The notes under the pieces were generated by a model. It was not told where the DNA came from, searched no databases, and saw only the letters and a program-made list of their open reading frames with translations. A DNA stretch of 64,000 nucleotides from Corynebacterium poyangense (lineage in GTDB: Bacteria; Actinomycetota; Actinomycetes; Mycobacteriales; Mycobacteriaceae): assembly GCF_014522205.1 (NCBI RefSeq), contig NZ_CP046884.1, forward strand, positions 1,302,001 through 1,366,000. Reading direction: 5' to 3'. Numbering within the stretch: position 1 is the first letter of the stretch; every line of letters begins with the position of its first letter. This document shows, piece after piece, positions 14,807 to 22,297 of the stretch. The position numbers and the translations under genes are program-made.

Positions 14807-14877
14807 TATCTGCGGCACCGGCTTCCCGTGTCCGCGATCTGTTTTTGCTAAGTCAAGAAGAAGTGAGGTTAAAAGCT

Positions 14878-16971
14878 GTGACATTGGCACCTGATTTAAA
14901 GGCCTTAACTGAACCGCACTACCCGGACAACTGGACTGACCTCGATACTCGAGCAGTAGACACCCTTCGGGTATTAGCCGCTGACGCTGTTCAAAAGTGT
15001 GGGTCAGGGCACCCTGGCACGGCTATGAGCCTCGCCCCCCTGGCTTATACCTTGTATCAGCGCACCATGGTTCACGATCCGTGCGATACTAATTGGGCTG
15101 GTCGTGACCGCTTCATTCTGTCCTGTGGACACTCCTCCCTCACCCAATACCTGCAGCTTTTCTTTGGCGGATTTGGGCTGGAACTCGAAGACATCAAACA
15201 GCTCCGCACCTGGGGCTCTCTTACTCCTGGCCATCCTGAGTATCGCCACACCAAAGGGGTAGAGATCACCACCGGGCCACTAGGCCAAGGATTAGCCTCT
15301 GCTGTGGGTATGGCTATGGCGGCGCGACGTGAGCGCGGCCTCTTTGATCCTGATGCCGCAGCCGGGGAGTCACCGTTTGATCACTATATTTATGTCATCG
15401 CCTCAGATGGCGACGTTCAAGAAGGGGTGACGGCGGAAGCCTCCTCCTTAGCTGGCACCCAAAAGCTGGGTAATCTTATTGTCTTTTGGGATGACAACCG
15501 GATTTCTATTGAGGACAACACCCAAATTGCGTTTACGGAGGACGTTGTCGCGCGATATCAGGCCTACGGTTGGCAGACCTTAGAAGTAGAGGGCGGAAAT
15601 AATGTCGCCGGTATTGAGGCGGCTATTGCTCAGGCTCAGGCAGATACTGAGCGTCCTACCTTTATTCGGCTGCGCACCGTGATTGCTTATCCAGCTCCCA
15701 CCATGATGAACACCGGAGCGTCCCATGGGGCAGCCTTAGGTGAGCAGGAAGTAGCTGCTATCAAAGAAGTCTTAGGCTTTGATCCTGACAAGACTTTTGA
15801 CGTCGCTGATGACGTGCTGGCTCACACCCGTGCACTGCAGAAGCGGGGTTCTCAAGCTCACGCCGAATGGCAACAAAAATACGACGCCTGGGCTGAATCT
15901 CATCCCGAGCAGGCGGCTTTACACCAACGACTGGAAGCTCGTGAACTTCCCGAGAATTTTGCAGACGAGCTCCCCTCGTGGGATCCAGATCCCAAGGGTG
16001 TGGCAACTCGCAAAGCCTCTGAAGCGGTTCTCCAGGTTTTAGCTAAGACCTTGCCGGAGCTGTGGGGCGGTTCTGCGGATCTGGCGGGTTCCAACAATAC
16101 GGTGATCAAAGGAGAAGCCTCCTTTGGTCCAGAAAGTATCTCAACAGATACTTGGTCAGCACATCCTTATGGCCGTAACCTCCATTTCGGTATCCGAGAA
16201 CACGCCATGGGCGCCATTATGAATGGCATTGCTTTACACGGTGGCACCCGCCCTTATGGTGGAACCTTCCTCATTTTCTCCGAATACATGCGCCCAGCCG
16301 TACGGCTAGCTGCACTCCAAGGCACCGACGCCTACTATGTGTGGACTCATGACTCCATTGGTTTAGGCGAAGATGGTCCTACCCATCAACCGGTAGAACA
16401 GCTCACTGCTTTGCGAGCTATTCCTAATCTGTCGATTTTGCGGCCGGCAGACGCTAATGAAACCGCGGCCGCCTGGAAACACGCTTTGCTCTATAAAGAA
16501 GGCCCTAAAGGTCTGGCGCTAACCCGGCAGAATCTTCCAGTGCTCGAAGGCACTAAGGAAAAGGCAGATGACGGTGTTGCTCGCGGCGCCTATGTCCTCG
16601 TTGAAGGCTCACAACCAACCCCAGACGTCATCATTATGGCTACTGGATCTGAGGTCCAACTTGCGGTGGATGCTGCAGCTCAATTGGAAGCTGAAGGAAC
16701 GGCTACTCGTGTAGTGTCCGTCCCCTGCCTAGATTGGTTTGAGGAACAAGACCAGTCATACATCGAGGAGGTTCTTCCGCCTTCGGTCACAGCTCGCGTA
16801 TCTGTGGAAGCAGGATTAGCAACCCCGTGGTATCGCTGGCTAGGTACCCAGGGGCGTGCAGTATCCTTGGAGCACTTTGGTGCTTCGGCTGACTACCAGA
16901 CTCTCTTCGACAAATTCGGGATTACCACTGAAGCAGTTGTTGCTGCAGCACATGAATCCCTTAATGCCTAA
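14878..16971 (+). CDS. tkt: Transketolase
   Basis: Thiamine-diphosphate enzyme moving two-carbon units between pentose-phosphate and glycolytic sugars. I place the start at GTG 14878 (697 residues), with GAGG at 14865-14868, because the protein then begins like C. glutamicum Tkt (MTLAPDLKALT). Seen: the substrate/TPP region GSGHPGTAMSLAP, TPP-binding ASDGDVQEGVTAEA...WDDNRIS, and the pyrimidine-domain stretch IREHAMGAIMNGIALHGG. First gene of tkt-tal, 31 bp before tal. Very close to the corynebacterial enzyme throughout. Confidence 0.97.
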   Translation: MTLAPDLKALTEPHYPDNWTDLDTRAVDTLRVLAADAVQKCGSGHPGTAMSLAPLAYTLYQRTMVHDPCDTNWAGRDRFILSCGHSSLTQYLQLFFGGFGLELEDIKQLRTWGSLTPGHPEYRHTKGVEITTGPLGQGLASAVGMAMAARRERGLFDPDAAAGESPFDHYIYVIASDGDVQEGVTAEASSLAGTQKLGNLIVFWDDNRISIEDNTQIAFTEDVVARYQAYGWQTLEVEGGNNVAGIEAAIAQAQADTERPTFIRLRTVIAYPAPTMMNTGASHGAALGEQEVAAIKEVLGFDPDKTFDVADDVLAHTRALQKRGSQAHAEWQQKYDAWAESHPEQAALHQRLEARELPENFADELPSWDPDPKGVATRKASEAVLQVLAKTLPELWGGSADLAGSNNTVIKGEASFGPESISTDTWSAHPYGRNLHFGIREHAMGAIMNGIALHGGTRPYGGTFLIFSEYMRPAVRLAALQGTDAYYVWTHDSIGLGEDGPTHQPVEQLTALRAIPNLSILRPADANETAAAWKHALLYKEGPKGLALTRQNLPVLEGTKEKADDGVARGAYVLVEGSQPTPDVIIMATGSEVQLAVDAAAQLEAEGTATRVVSVPCLDWFEEQDQSYIEEVLPPSVTARVSVEAGLATPWYRWLGTQGRAVSLEHFGASADYQTLFDKFGITTEAVVAAAHESLNA

Positions 16972-17002: not shown

Positions 17003-18085
17003 ATGACCCACGCAATTGGGCAGCTTGCTGACCTTGGAACATCCACCTGGTTGGATGACCTTTCCAGGGAAAGAATCAGCACCGGAAACCTCACTGAGCT
17101 CATCGCCAACAAGGGTATCGTCGGCGTAACCACCAACCCAGCTATTTTTGCTGCTGCGATGAGTGCCGGCACCGCCTATGATGAGCAAATCGCCGAACTA
17201 AAAAAGGCTGCTGCAACCGTCGACGAGGCAGTTTATGCTATGTCTATTGATGATGTTCGTGACGCCTGCGATGCCTTTGCTGAGATTTATCATCAAACTC
17301 ACGGTTTCGACGGTCGGGTCAGCATTGAAGTTGACCCGCGCTTATCAGCAGATCGGGACGCAACCTTAGCGCAAGCTCGGGAGTTATGGAGGAAGGTTGA
17401 CCGTCCCAATGTCATGATTAAGATTCCGGCCACCGAGGGCTCGATGCCTGCTATTGCTGACGCGCTGGCTGAAGGAATCAGCGTCAACGTGACATTGATT
17501 TTCTCGGTGGCTCGTTATCGCGAAGTCCTCAACACCTATAAGGAAGGAATTCGACGAGCAGTAGACAATGGTATTGATCCGGCAACGATCCACTCCGTGG
17601 CATCATTCTTCGTCTCTCGCCTTGATACTGAGGTAGACCGACGCCTAGAAGAAATCGGAACGGAGGAAGCTTTAGCCCTACGCGGCAAAGCTGGGGTAGC
17701 AAATGCTCGTCGCGCCTATGCCGTCTTCCGCCAGGCTTTCACCGAAGGTGAATTACCTCAAGGGGCTAATATTCAACGACCGCTCTGGGCTTCCACGGGT
17801 GTTAAGAACCCCAACTACCCAGCTACCCTTTACGTCACGGAATTGGCTGGACCCGATACGGTGAACACCATGCCTGAGTCCACCATTGACGCAGTGCTGG
17901 AGCTAGATGAATTAAAGGGCGAAACCCTCACTGGTCATGAAGCTGAGGATGAGAAGGTTTTTTCCGATCTCCTCCACGTCGGCGTCGACACCGAAGATGT
18001 TTTTGCAGTTCTCGAGCAAGAGGGTGTGGATAAATTCGTCACCGCATGGTCAGAGTTATTAGAATCAATGGCCAGCCAGCTATAA
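17003..18085 (+). CDS. tal: Transaldolase (TalB/long actinobacterial type)
   Basis: Schiff-base aldolase transferring dihydroxyacetone units in the non-oxidative pentose phosphate pathway. The 360 residues match the actinobacterial class. The catalytic lysine is Lys140 in VMIKIPATEGS; the start region GIVGVTTNPAIFAAAMS and the late ASTGVKNPNYPATLYVTELAG block are diagnostic. AAAGGAG precedes the ATG. Cotranscribed with tkt and closed by a strong terminator. Confidence 0.96.
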   Translation: MTHAIGQLADLGTSTWLDDLSRERISTGNLTELIANKGIVGVTTNPAIFAAAMSAGTAYDEQIAELKKAAATVDEAVYAMSIDDVRDACDAFAEIYHQTHGFDGRVSIEVDPRLSADRDATLAQARELWRKVDRPNVMIKIPATEGSMPAIADALAEGISVNVTLIFSVARYREVLNTYKEGIRRAVDNGIDPATIHSVASFFVSRLDTEVDRRLEEIGTEEALALRGKAGVANARRAYAVFRQAFTEGELPQGANIQRPLWASTGVKNPNYPATLYVTELAGPDTVNTMPESTIDAVLELDELKGETLTGHEAEDEKVFSDLLHVGVDTEDVFAVLEQEGVDKFVTAWSELLESMASQL

Positions 18086-18236: not shown

Positions 18237-19781
18237 TTGACAGAGTTGAATGTGGAACCGCAGTGGACTAACCCCCTGCGCGATCCTCAAGATAAACGTC
18301 TCCCGCGCATCGCCGGACCTTCCGGGATGGTGCTTTTTGGTATCACCGGAGACCTCGCTCGGAAAAAACTCCTCCCCGCCTTTTATGACCTAGCTAACCG
18401 AGGGCTGCTTCCCCCCGGCTTCAGTTTGGTCGGTTACGGACGCCGTGACTGGTCTGCCGAGCAATTCCGAGACTACGTTTTCCAAGCAGTCAAAGAGCGC
18501 GCACGCACCCCCTTCCACGACAAAGTCTGGGAACGCTTCGCCGACGGTTTAGTTTTTGTATCCGGCAACTTTGATGATGACGAAGCCTTTGATCGCCTCG
18601 CTGAGAAAGTCGCCGACATCGACCGCACCCGTGGCACCAGTGGAAACTGGGCGTTTTACCTATCCATTCCACCGGGATTTTTCGCCGACGTCTGCCATCA
18701 GTTACAACGCTCAGGACTCTCCCACGCCGATGACAACGCGTGGCGTCGAGTCATTATCGAAAAACCTTTTGGGCATGACCAGAAGACGGCGCAGCACCTC
18801 AACAAGGTGGTGAACTCGGTGTTCCCGGAAGAATCCGTGTACCGAATTGACCACTACCTTGGCAAAGAAACAGTCCAAAATATATTGGCTCTACGCTTCG
18901 CCAACCAGCTTTTTGAGCCCTTGTGGAACGCTCGATTCATTGACCATGTCCAGATCACCATGGCAGAAGACATCGGTCTTGGCGGAAGAGCCGGATACTA
19001 CGACGGTATCGGCGCAGCACGAGATGTCATTCAAAATCATTTGATCCAGTTGCTCGCCTTAATCGCCATGGAAGAACCCGTGAGCTTCTCACCGGCAGAA
19101 TTGCAGGCGGAAAAGGTGAAAATCCTCCGAGCCACCCGCGCCGTCGAACCCTTTGAACTCACGACCGCCAGGGGTCAATATAGCGCCGGCTGGCAAGGTT
19201 CGGAACAGGTCTGCGGCCTCCGCGAAGAAAAAGGTTTTGACCCGGCCTCAACCACCGAGACTTTTGCCGCCTGCACCTTGGAGATTTCTTCTCGTCGGTG
19301 GGCTGGAGTTCCGTTTTACCTTCGCACGGGGAAACGTTTAGGTCGCCGCGTTACTGAAATCGCTGTGGTCTTTAAACGACCTCCTCATCAACCCTTCGGG
19401 CCAGAAGAAACATCCGCTTTAGGTAACAACGCCGTGGTTATCCGAGTCCAACCTGATGAAGGCGTACTCATGCGCTTTGGATCTAAGGTTCCTGGTTCAG
19501 CGATGGAAGTTCGAGACGTAAATATGGACTTTTCCTACGCAGAGGCTTTTACGGAACAATCCCCGGAAGCATATGAGCGACTCATCTTGGATGCTCTCTT
19601 AGATGAATCCAGTCTCTTCCCCACTAACGAGGAAGTTGAATTGAGTTGGGCTATTTTAGATCCGATCCTGCATTATTGGGCTGAGTCTGGAACACCAGAA
19701 GATTATCCCGCTGGTACCTGGGGTCCAGCAACTGCCGACCGCATGTTATCCCGAAGTGGCCGTACATGGCGTCGACCCTAG
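18237..19781 (+). CDS. zwf: Glucose-6-phosphate 1-dehydrogenase
   Basis: First enzyme of the oxidative pentose phosphate pathway, producing NADPH. The 514 residues carry the nucleotide motif GITGDLARKKLLPAF (35-49) and the active-site signature RIDHYLGKE (203-211). The start is TTG 18237 with GAGGAG six bases upstream; no ATG or GTG fits better, so low-efficiency initiation is likely. In corynebacteria the enzyme needs OpcA, encoded immediately downstream. Its own promoter must lie in 18173-18224, where I see no strong boxes. Confidence 0.96.
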   Translation: MTELNVEPQWTNPLRDPQDKRLPRIAGPSGMVLFGITGDLARKKLLPAFYDLANRGLLPPGFSLVGYGRRDWSAEQFRDYVFQAVKERARTPFHDKVWERFADGLVFVSGNFDDDEAFDRLAEKVADIDRTRGTSGNWAFYLSIPPGFFADVCHQLQRSGLSHADDNAWRRVIIEKPFGHDQKTAQHLNKVVNSVFPEESVYRIDHYLGKETVQNILALRFANQLFEPLWNARFIDHVQITMAEDIGLGGRAGYYDGIGAARDVIQNHLIQLLALIAMEEPVSFSPAELQAEKVKILRATRAVEPFELTTARGQYSAGWQGSEQVCGLREEKGFDPASTTETFAACTLEISSRRWAGVPFYLRTGKRLGRRVTEIAVVFKRPPHQPFGPEETSALGNNAVVIRVQPDEGVLMRFGSKVPGSAMEVRDVNMDFSYAEAFTEQSPEAYERLILDALLDESSLFPTNEEVELSWAILDPILHYWAESGTPEDYPAGTWGPATADRMLSRSGRTWRRP

Positions 19782-19805: not shown

Positions 19806-21512
19806 ATGATTATTGACCTTCCCCACACCACCACCCGGAAAATTGCTGAAGCCCTCAATTCCATGCGCGAGCGCTCCGCTCAAACTACTGGGCGGGTCCT
19901 CACCTTGATCGTGGTAGCCGACGCCACTGATGATTTAGAACGTATCCGACGCGCCGTGACTGATGCTTCCCAAGAGCATCCGGCTCGAGTGCTGATTTTA
20001 GTGACCGAACATGACCGCAATGGAAACCAATTAGATGCCGAGCTTCTTATTGGCGGTGACGCTGGAGCGTCAGAAATTATCATCATGCACCTGCGCGGGG
20101 ATATTGCTCATCACCCAGCAGCCGTCGTAACCCCCTTATTATTGCCCGACACCCCCATTGCCGCGTGGTGGCCGGAGCAAGCCCCAACAATTCCTTCTGA
20201 ACATCCCATCGGCAAAATCGCCCAACGGCGAATCACCGATTCACCCAAACACCCCGACAACGCTCCCTCTCCCCTTCCAGCCCGTAGAGCTCATCATCGA
20301 GCCGGAGATACCGACATGATGTGGGCCAGAATCACCGCCTGGCGTGCTCTCGTTGCTTCCGCTTTGGAACTGCCACCCCATGAACCTATTCAACGAGTCC
20401 GAGTTTGCGGTCCAGCTACTCACCCCAGTGTGGATATCGCCGCAGGTTGGCTAGCAACCCGCTTGAATGTGGAAGTCATCAGGGAGCACTCGGAATGCAT
20501 TAAACCCGGATCATTTATGATCACCACCCTCGTGCTAGAACGAGAAAGTGGAGATGTCACGCTCAAGGTGATTGATAAGCACACTATTAAACTGCAGGTG
20601 CCTGGTCGCCCTGATTCCTTAGTGGCGCTATCACGACGTTCAATAGCGGATTGCCTGGCCGAGGAATTACGTCACCTTGCTCCAGACAAGGCTTATACTG
20701 CAGCTCTGGAGGGGCTAGATAAAGTGACCTACGACTGCCCACATTCCGCTCTTCCTCACGGTGAAAACGTCCCTCACAGTGGGCTCAATGTCGAACACGT
20801 CGCTGACCAAGATGATCTCACCCGTCGAGCAGCTCGTCGCCTCACCCAGATTATCCAGGATATTCAATCTTCCCCTACCGGTGGTGCGCACCACGACGGG
20901 ATAGCCCGAATTGTTCTCACCGGCGGGGGAACTGGTATCGGTGTGTTAAAACAATTAGCCTCGTTCGGTGCTGACATTGACCACCATAAAGTAGAAATCT
21001 TCTTCGGTGATGAGCGCAATGTTCCGGTCAGTGACCCAGAGTCCAACGAGGGGCAAGCTCGACGCGCACTGTTGGATCACTGGCAGGTTCCCGAGGATTG
21101 TATCCACGGTTATGGTTTAACCGGCGGGGACATGATGGACGCAGTGACAAACTATCGTCGGATTTTAAAGGAACGTGCTCCTCGAGGATTTGATGTTCAT
21201 CTTTTGGGTATGGGCGAAGAAGGGCATATTAACTCCTTATTCCCCCACTCGGCGGCTTTGCATGAGTCTATCGAGCAGGTGGTCCCTGTTTATGATTCCC
21301 CTAAACCCCCGGCAGAACGAGTTACGTTGACCACTGTCGCACTAGAGAAGGCGGATCGTATTTGGCTGCTTGTGTCCGGATCCGCTAAAGCAGAGGCCGC
21401 TCACCAGGTTATTAATCATGGAGATCCTCAAGAATGGCCGGCAGCCGGGATTAGTGGACGGATCGAAACTACCTTGTATCTCAGTGAAGATGCCTCCGCT
21501 AATAGTTCTTAG
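19806..21512 (+). CDS. opcA-pgl: Fusion protein: OpcA (Zwf assembly factor) + 6-phosphogluconolactonase
   Basis: One open frame of 568 residues joins two pathway neighbours. Residues 1-310 are OpcA, beginning MIIDLPHTTTRKI with GGDAGASEIIIMHL, PLLLPDTPIAAWWP and IAQRRITD, and needed for Zwf assembly or activity. After a linker of about 15 residues (311-325), residues 326-568 are a complete Pgl: LTGGGTGIGVL (about 372), FFGDERNVPVSDPESN (about 397) and HLLGMGEEGHINSLFP (about 465). Pgl hydrolyses the lactone made by Zwf. There is no stop or frameshift between the parts. ATG 19797 is an alternative start, but GGAAAG fits 19806 better. Each half is family length. Confidence 0.93.
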   Translation: MIIDLPHTTTRKIAEALNSMRERSAQTTGRVLTLIVVADATDDLERIRRAVTDASQEHPARVLILVTEHDRNGNQLDAELLIGGDAGASEIIIMHLRGDIAHHPAAVVTPLLLPDTPIAAWWPEQAPTIPSEHPIGKIAQRRITDSPKHPDNAPSPLPARRAHHRAGDTDMMWARITAWRALVASALELPPHEPIQRVRVCGPATHPSVDIAAGWLATRLNVEVIREHSECIKPGSFMITTLVLERESGDVTLKVIDKHTIKLQVPGRPDSLVALSRRSIADCLAEELRHLAPDKAYTAALEGLDKVTYDCPHSALPHGENVPHSGLNVEHVADQDDLTRRAARRLTQIIQDIQSSPTGGAHHDGIARIVLTGGGTGIGVLKQLASFGADIDHHKVEIFFGDERNVPVSDPESNEGQARRALLDHWQVPEDCIHGYGLTGGDMMDAVTNYRRILKERAPRGFDVHLLGMGEEGHINSLFPHSAALHESIEQVVPVYDSPKPPAERVTLTTVALEKADRIWLLVSGSAKAEAAHQVINHGDPQEWPAAGISGRIETTLYLSEDASANSS

Positions 21513-21583: not shown

Positions 21584-22297
21584 ATGTCTCGACGGTTTAT
21601 CAACTCAGTTATTAGCTCAGGCATGATCCTGCTGAGCTTCAGCGGTTTTACTGCCCATGCGTATCAGGTCCATGCAGATACTTCGGCTGACCAATGCGTC
21701 GTTGATACCCAGGCGGATTCGGCTATTTCCGAGTTTTGGAAACACCTGGACACCTGGACTGCAGACGCCCGGATATCTGCGATTGACCAGCAAGATCCTG
21801 GACTGGGAGAGCTCATTCGACAGTGGACGCCCGGACAATCTGCCGAAGAGATTCAAAATCGACTCAACGCCTTAGGCCAAAACGACAATTTTGGTATGTT
21901 ATTGGATCTGCGGGACGGGCAAAACACTAGTTTGAGTGAGTCTGATCCTCAGGCAAGCGCAAAAACCCGCTACACCGAGGACGAAGCGCGAAAAGCTGCA
22001 GATGCTATCGGTGACGATCCGGCAGCAGATGCCGAAGCTAAATTATCGGAGATGGCTGCCCGGGGAACGGCATTGGATAAAACTCGCTTGGAACAGTTTC
22101 AGGCTCACCGAGAGGAATATAACCAGGCGCAGCAGGAATTTCATGACCAGTTGCTGCAGTGCGCCGATGAGTTGAAAAAATCCAGGCCGGTACCGACCTG
22201 GATCTGGGTTGTTGGTGGATTAGCTGTGTTGGCTATCTTAGCCACAGCAGCTCGGGCCTTTGTTAATTCTCGACGCCCCAGCCGCCATTATCGCTAG
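21584..22297 (+). CDS. Unidentified secreted, C-terminally membrane-anchored protein
   Basis: I do not recognise this 237-residue protein. It has a signal peptide (RR, hydrophobic 8-24, likely cut after AHA at 26 or VHA at 31), then an acidic, mostly helical and Gln/Ala/Asp-rich outer region (about 32-200). Cys38 and Cys193 could pair in a disulfide. A transmembrane segment (about 206-227, WIWVVGGLAVLAILATAARAF) is followed by a basic tail, so it should be anchored with its body outside. GAGGAG precedes the ATG, but AGGAG can pair with CTCCT right before the start (21570-21583). It lies downstream of the pentose-phosphate genes and converges on secG. Confidence 0.7.
   Translation: MSRRFINSVISSGMILLSFSGFTAHAYQVHADTSADQCVVDTQADSAISEFWKHLDTWTADARISAIDQQDPGLGELIRQWTPGQSAEEIQNRLNALGQNDNFGMLLDLRDGQNTSLSESDPQASAKTRYTEDEARKAADAIGDDPAADAEAKLSEMAARGTALDKTRLEQFQAHREEYNQAQQEFHDQLLQCADELKKSRPVPTWIWVVGGLAVLAILATAARAFVNSRRPSRHYR

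Follow-up and report, generated by a model that had tools for sequence, protein, structure and literature searches.

The gene directly 3′ of zwf in the window, by which we mean the whole 64,000-nucleotide stretch of Corynebacterium poyangense DNA analysed here, is a fusion of opcA with pgl, the gene for 6-phosphogluconolactonase (Pgl), and the fusion is confirmed as real. Read directly, the frame (+) holds no stop from either possible start, 19797 or 19806, to its end codon at 21512, and encodes 571 aa from the first ATG (19797) or 568 aa from ATG 19806. The latter is preferred as the start because a sequence resembling a ribosome site lies 9 nt before it (duplex −7.3 kcal/mol versus −5.0 kcal/mol for 19797). 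The initial annotation had described an uninterrupted frame with full OpcA, a short linker and full Pgl, a description borne out by the open frame and the complete domains, and its estimate of the junction at about 20720-20790 was correct. The operon order is tkt-tal-zwf-fusion. We propose that the product is probably a bifunctional protein of ~60 kDa whose OpcA half docks on Zwf, with Pgl tethered nearby, and that it originated through loss of a stop codon and conversion of the intergenic spacer into a linker.

Table. Features of the operon and of the fused gene, in window coordinates
Feature	Position	Strand	Remarks
tkt, transketolase	14845..16971	+	
tal, transaldolase	17003..18085	+	
zwf, glucose-6-phosphate dehydrogenase	18237..19781	+	24 nt from stop to ATG 19806
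opcA-pgl fusion gene	19806..21512	+	single open frame, three Pfam domains; alternative start 19797
OpcA half, residues 1-307	19806..20726	+	PF10128 and PF20171; fold match to 9EMM chain E
Possible internal start: GTG 20724, GGAGG 11 nt upstream	20708..20726	+	in Pgl frame; duplex −9.8 kcal/mol; candidate
Flexible linker core, residues 312-324	20739..20777	+	pLDDT <50; traced to the old intergenic spacer through comparison with relatives
Eroded former pgl ribosome site and start, CAC GGT GAA AAC GTC	20757..20771	+	aligned to C. uropygiale CAA GGA GAA ACG ATG
6-phosphogluconolactonase half, residues 327-568	20784..21509	+	PF01182

Three Pfam domains follow one another along the fusion protein, PF10128 (residues 52-151), PF20171 (167-301) and PF01182 (334-552), all far above cut-off. 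The first two are the N and C domains of OpcA (109.1 versus a gathering score of 27.9 bits, and 133.3 versus 27.7 bits), and the Pgl half passes both models for its family, at 197.8 versus 27 bits for PF01182 and 180.3 versus 124.45 bits for NCBIfam TIGR01198. The OpcA half covers positions 1-307 of 313 in the NCBIfam equivalog model TIGR00534 and misses its cut-off (204.7 versus 256.25 bits). All four unfused Corynebacterium OpcA proteins tested miss it too (194.8-212.8 bits), so the model is not diagnostic in the genus and does not set the fusion protein apart; the N-terminal half is called OpcA on its other features and not as an NCBI equivalog. It matches the solved OpcA fold (PDB 9EMM chain E), at only 19% identity over the aligned residues, and the Pgl half matches a solved mycobacterial Pgl structure. 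The Pgl motifs FFGDERNVP, GMGEEGHINSLFP and DSPKPPAERVTLT are present in the fusion protein, and in alignment with the Pgl of M. tuberculosis and M. smegmatis the Pgl half has the conserved GDER, GH and SPKPP..R motifs, whose residues we take to be catalytic. In the AlphaFold2 model (mean pLDDT 92.3) the sole segment of at least three residues below 50 is the linker, residues 312-324; this model comes from a run with 92 sequences, and a run with 7 sequences (pLDDT 62.4) was set aside.

No OpcA or Pgl besides those of the fusion gene was found in the genome, which is a single contig. A search of that genome with PF10128 matched the fusion gene alone, and the lactonase family PF10282 had no match in it. 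PF01182 matches a second protein (86.8 bits versus 200.4 for the fusion gene), which was considered as a second Pgl and rejected. It passes the nagB cut-off (255.5 versus 236.9) and fails that for pgl (78.2 versus 124.45), and by these NCBI cut-offs is a predicted glucosamine-6-phosphate deaminase. Between the window and C. uropygiale, which has the same fusion in a protein 73% identical to the window's, the two halves show pN of 0.14 and 0.25 and a saturated pS of about 0.8; because synonymous sites are saturated in both halves, pN and pS are given rather than dN/dS. Low pN against saturated pS indicates purifying selection, and both functions therefore seem to be kept. At the other end of the operon, the longest tkt frame begins at 14845 with a TTG and a poor ribosome-site score (−2.0 kcal/mol), and the true start may lie downstream.

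The DNA of the junction suggests how the two genes became one. In the unfused relatives compared, opcA stops a few codons past the end of the match to the window's protein, and a spacer and then pgl follow. The junctions of C. uropygiale and the window align codon by codon with no gaps; that of C. uropygiale reads in sense codons throughout and has AAGGAGAAACGATG in frame at the old pgl start. The window counterpart of this stretch is ACGGTGAAAACGTC, in which the ribosome site is weakened (AAGGAG to ACGGTG) and the ATG has become GTC. This fits the loss of a stop codon with the old spacer turned into a linker. Since C. uropygiale keeps the old pgl start and the window has it eroded, the spacer would have been retained as linker and the start lost afterwards in the window lineage. 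On the best reading of these sequences, the window's fusion goes back to a common ancestor with C. uropygiale, in which opcA and pgl were two genes until the stop of opcA disappeared. The linkers of the two species agree in a run of five residues, HSALP, with third-base changes in three of the codons, and for the 22 linker codons pN is 0.36 against a pS of 0.67 (Fisher p 0.05), which hints, if only marginally, at translation of the linker.

The fusion is sporadic in the genus. The fusion protein found matches in 240 of 242 Corynebacterium genomes, and among the matches listed a single match extended across both halves in 51 of them, free of stops in 5 and interrupted by one or two stops in 46; the remaining matches listed cover one half each. 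With fusions in 5 of 242 genomes among the matches listed (G000, G231, G089, G158 and G014), most relatives must manage without one. The G231 protein is identical to a C. uropygiale record and that of G158 to a record from Corynebacterium sp. HMSC074A01, and the G089 protein is 99.8% identical to C. kutscheri P0002. Long open frames had raised the suspicion of fusion in G184, G167 and G104, whose sequences show that they are not fused. In the 46 interrupted genomes opcA and pgl share a frame, the one or two stops lying between the genes or within the match, and are one or two mutations short of fusion. For a sample of the class, 333 of 394 genomes matched at E 1e-20 or better, and the window and G471 alone lacked a stop among the listed matches spanning both halves, in a search that can miss fused genes with long linkers. 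Among 40 further class loci, 38 contained both halves, unfused in every case; L187 and L197 had no Pgl match in the stretch examined, and L188 was too short for the class tree.

Phylogenetic placement points to several origins. In a Zwf+OpcA+Pgl tree of 113 tips, 110 of them Corynebacterium and with duplicates removed, the five fused tips occupy four positions (4 changes by Fitch parsimony). A quick IQ-TREE of 47 tips likewise has 4 changes, each of them required by starred branches. A single fused clade for the five Corynebacterium fusions is rejected by the AU test on the quick tree (p-AU 1.45e-83), and a single origin would need 20 losses on the 113-tip tree. The fused HMSC074A01 groups with the unfused C. 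gottingense at 100% support, and the junctions of G089 and G014 are shorter, with little or no spacer, as if after a deletion, so that they also indicate separate origins. A class-wide OpcA+Pgl tree, with 118 tips chosen by hand and including 33 of 137 fused database proteins and 6 fused loci, shows 15 label changes; fused groups of at least two sequences fall at about nine places, some on weak branches. P0007, P0008, P0048, P0058, P0077 and P0165 in this tree are single-member clusters that may be artefacts, and P0008, P0048 and P0077 have clearly shortened OpcA matches. Taken by tree position, these data point to the fusion having arisen several times in actinobacteria.

Single proteins covering OpcA and Pgl, a search for which the initial annotation had suggested, occur in several actinobacterial genera. 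With the window protein as query, 49 of the 120 matches listed exceed 440 aa and carry all three domains; a profile built from 11 fused proteins gave 120 listed matches, all with three domains. These lists, which are ranked matches and not a census, include fused proteins from Ornithinimicrobium, Ornithinicoccus, Brachybacterium, Devriesea, Angustibacter and two Streptomyces, and a re-scan confirmed the three-domain architecture for 9 proteins. Among 41 named proteins listed, 32 are called 6-phosphogluconolactonase, 8 OpcA (6 from JGI and 2 from Streptomyces) and 1 hypothetical, and for C. kutscheri P0002 two sources disagree, one giving OpcA and the other 6-phosphogluconolactonase. The predominance of Pgl names is likely due to the NCBI cut-offs: in the five fused proteins tested the Pgl half always passes, and the OpcA half falls below in four (P0001, P0002, P0012 and P0185), the exception being Streptomyces P0163 at 308.4 bits. 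Because databases usually name one half, OpcA-Pgl fusions are easily missed, and the named records, which give one half only and mostly Pgl among those listed, expose a blind spot of annotation. Public databases already contain the architecture, so the sequence class itself is no novelty. The open-licence literature searched yielded no paper describing an OpcA-Pgl fusion, and within that scope the recognition that this fusion is repeated appears to be unreported. The proteins of Brachybacterium, Ornithinimicrobium, Devriesea, Angustibacter, Streptomyces and C. kutscheri resemble the window's in architecture and differ in tree position, which indicates several separate origins.

Repeated fusion of one pair suggests that OpcA and Pgl work near each other. 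In the mechanism we propose, the OpcA half would dock on the oligomer of Zwf (glucose-6-phosphate dehydrogenase, G6PDH) and support or adjust its activity, and the Pgl half would be an ordinary 6-phosphogluconolactonase, tethered by some 13-20 flexible residues and acting near the site where Zwf releases lactone. The fusion protein would remain unprocessed, and the gain from proximity would lie in fixed 1:1 production and co-localisation, with no requirement for channelling.

It is quite possible, if short of probable, that the fusion is instead neutral, the stop between two co-translated neighbours being lost occasionally and the loss tolerated, with no functional gain, as the domains fold independently. 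Such a process would suit the adjacency of opcA and pgl across short gaps (median 57 nt from the opcA stop to the aligned Pgl start), the prevalence among both-half genomes of same-frame pairs with one or two stops (46 of 51, among the matches listed), the rarity of the fusion in the genus, and a linker that varies in length and sequence between lineages, the junction being the least conserved part of the gene. That the fusion recurs across several lineages of actinobacteria, in some of them with numerous fused sequences, argues for function, as does the lean of the linker codons towards protein-level conservation. The pair zwf-opcA serves as a control at the same loci: its gaps are short too (median 31 nt to the aligned OpcA start), and it is fused in 0 of 110 versus 5 of 110 for opcA-pgl. 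This comparison is mildly favourable to a functional fusion, but four events versus none is weak, and neutral stop loss therefore stays a serious rival. More tentatively, the OpcA of actinobacteria could be scaffold as well as assembly factor, with Pgl joining Zwf-OpcA even where it is encoded separately and the repeated fusions making a normally transient metabolon permanent. The findings predict a Zwf-OpcA-Pgl complex in actinobacteria, including the industrial organism C. glutamicum, where NADPH supply matters.

We think it unlikely that the fused frame has a dual output, with internal initiation giving free Pgl besides the fusion. The AAGGAGAAACGATG kept in frame at the old pgl start of C. 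uropygiale and the window's GTG 20724 (GGAGG 11 nt upstream, −9.8 kcal/mol) would permit it, but in the window the old ATG is now GTC and AAGGAG is now ACGGTG, and the GGAGGGG stretch near the candidate GTG also codes for OpcA residues common to relatives and is spaced at a long distance.

Comparison with known systems bears on whether lactone is passed directly between the enzymes. Stover et al. 2011 (PMC3148214) count three independent origins of G6PD-6PGL fusions among eukaryotes and suggest that these may bring a selective benefit, for which channelling is one candidate; OpcA as a term is absent from the main text of that paper. Fusions of this kind are known from animals (H6PD, PDB 8EM2), from Plasmodium and other apicomplexans, and from Giardia and Trichomonas. 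The window's fusion differs in being bacterial and in that Pgl is joined not to the dehydrogenase but to its non-catalytic partner, OpcA; the G6PD catalytic domain is not in the Pgl chain, Zwf being a separate gene with its own stop, and OpcA takes its place. A link like that of G6PDH to Pgl would have been made in bacteria through this partner, several times independently. The initial annotation had suggested lactone channelling, which finds no support. True channelling of 6-phosphogluconolactone from Zwf to Pgl is very unlikely: the tether would bring Pgl close to Zwf if OpcA binds as in 9EMM, but the linker is flexible and variable, few OpcA per tetramer are likely, and for the directly fused Giardia G6PD::6PGL one report describes lactone released to the medium, channelling not observed, and domains more efficient than the separate proteins (PMC8399836). 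In C. glutamicum (PMC2230225) the order tkt-tal-zwf-opcA-pgl and both functions are as in the window, but opcA and devB/pgl are separate genes (cg1779 and cg1780), as the initial annotation had stated. The OpcA of the cyanobacterial OpcA-G6PDH complex (PDB 9EMM) is longer than the window's and redox-regulated via cysteines near its C terminus, and a Pgl domain is not described for it in the available text of the same papers (PMC12892837, PMC13071761).

A sequencing or assembly error concealing a stop or frameshift between two ordinary genes, against which the initial annotation had cautioned, was rejected as most improbable, the source genome being one contig (100% complete by the tool's estimate) and the fused, gap-free frame of C. 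uropygiale being seen both in a RefSeq assembly (L100) and as database protein P0001 (5 differences from L100, 99.1% over 570 residues). The caveat is a missing close copy: no database protein is at least 90% identical to the window's fused protein among the 120 matches listed (best P0001, 73%), yet a Zwf with 2 differences from the window's, P0209, is among those listed for a Zwf+OpcA chimera query. P0209 has 2 member sequences and a contig of 525,244 bases, which is at odds with a genome in one contig; the gene may have another form in a different assembly of the window species, or something else may account for the missing record. As the window's frame is open by direct reading, the missing copy alone does not show a split gene.

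Among the 120 proteins listed for the chimera query, which served as a further control, 2 join Zwf to OpcA, another fusion of the operon's genes, and both are single-member (P0218, 833 aa; P0256, 689 aa); the remaining matches listed carry Zwf domains only, so this is not a census of Zwf-OpcA fusions. The fused frame of C. uropygiale (L002, L100) holds an intact-looking pgl ribosome site and ATG, and that species may therefore make free Pgl together with the fusion. In the window, 71 nt after the fusion gene, a frame at 21584-22297 (+) encodes a 237-aa protein with no Pfam or NCBIfam match and, by eye, an N terminus resembling a signal sequence and a hydrophobic stretch towards the C terminus. 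Its sole relative among the loci compared is in C. uropygiale (L002, L100), at 56% identity, also just after the fusion gene.
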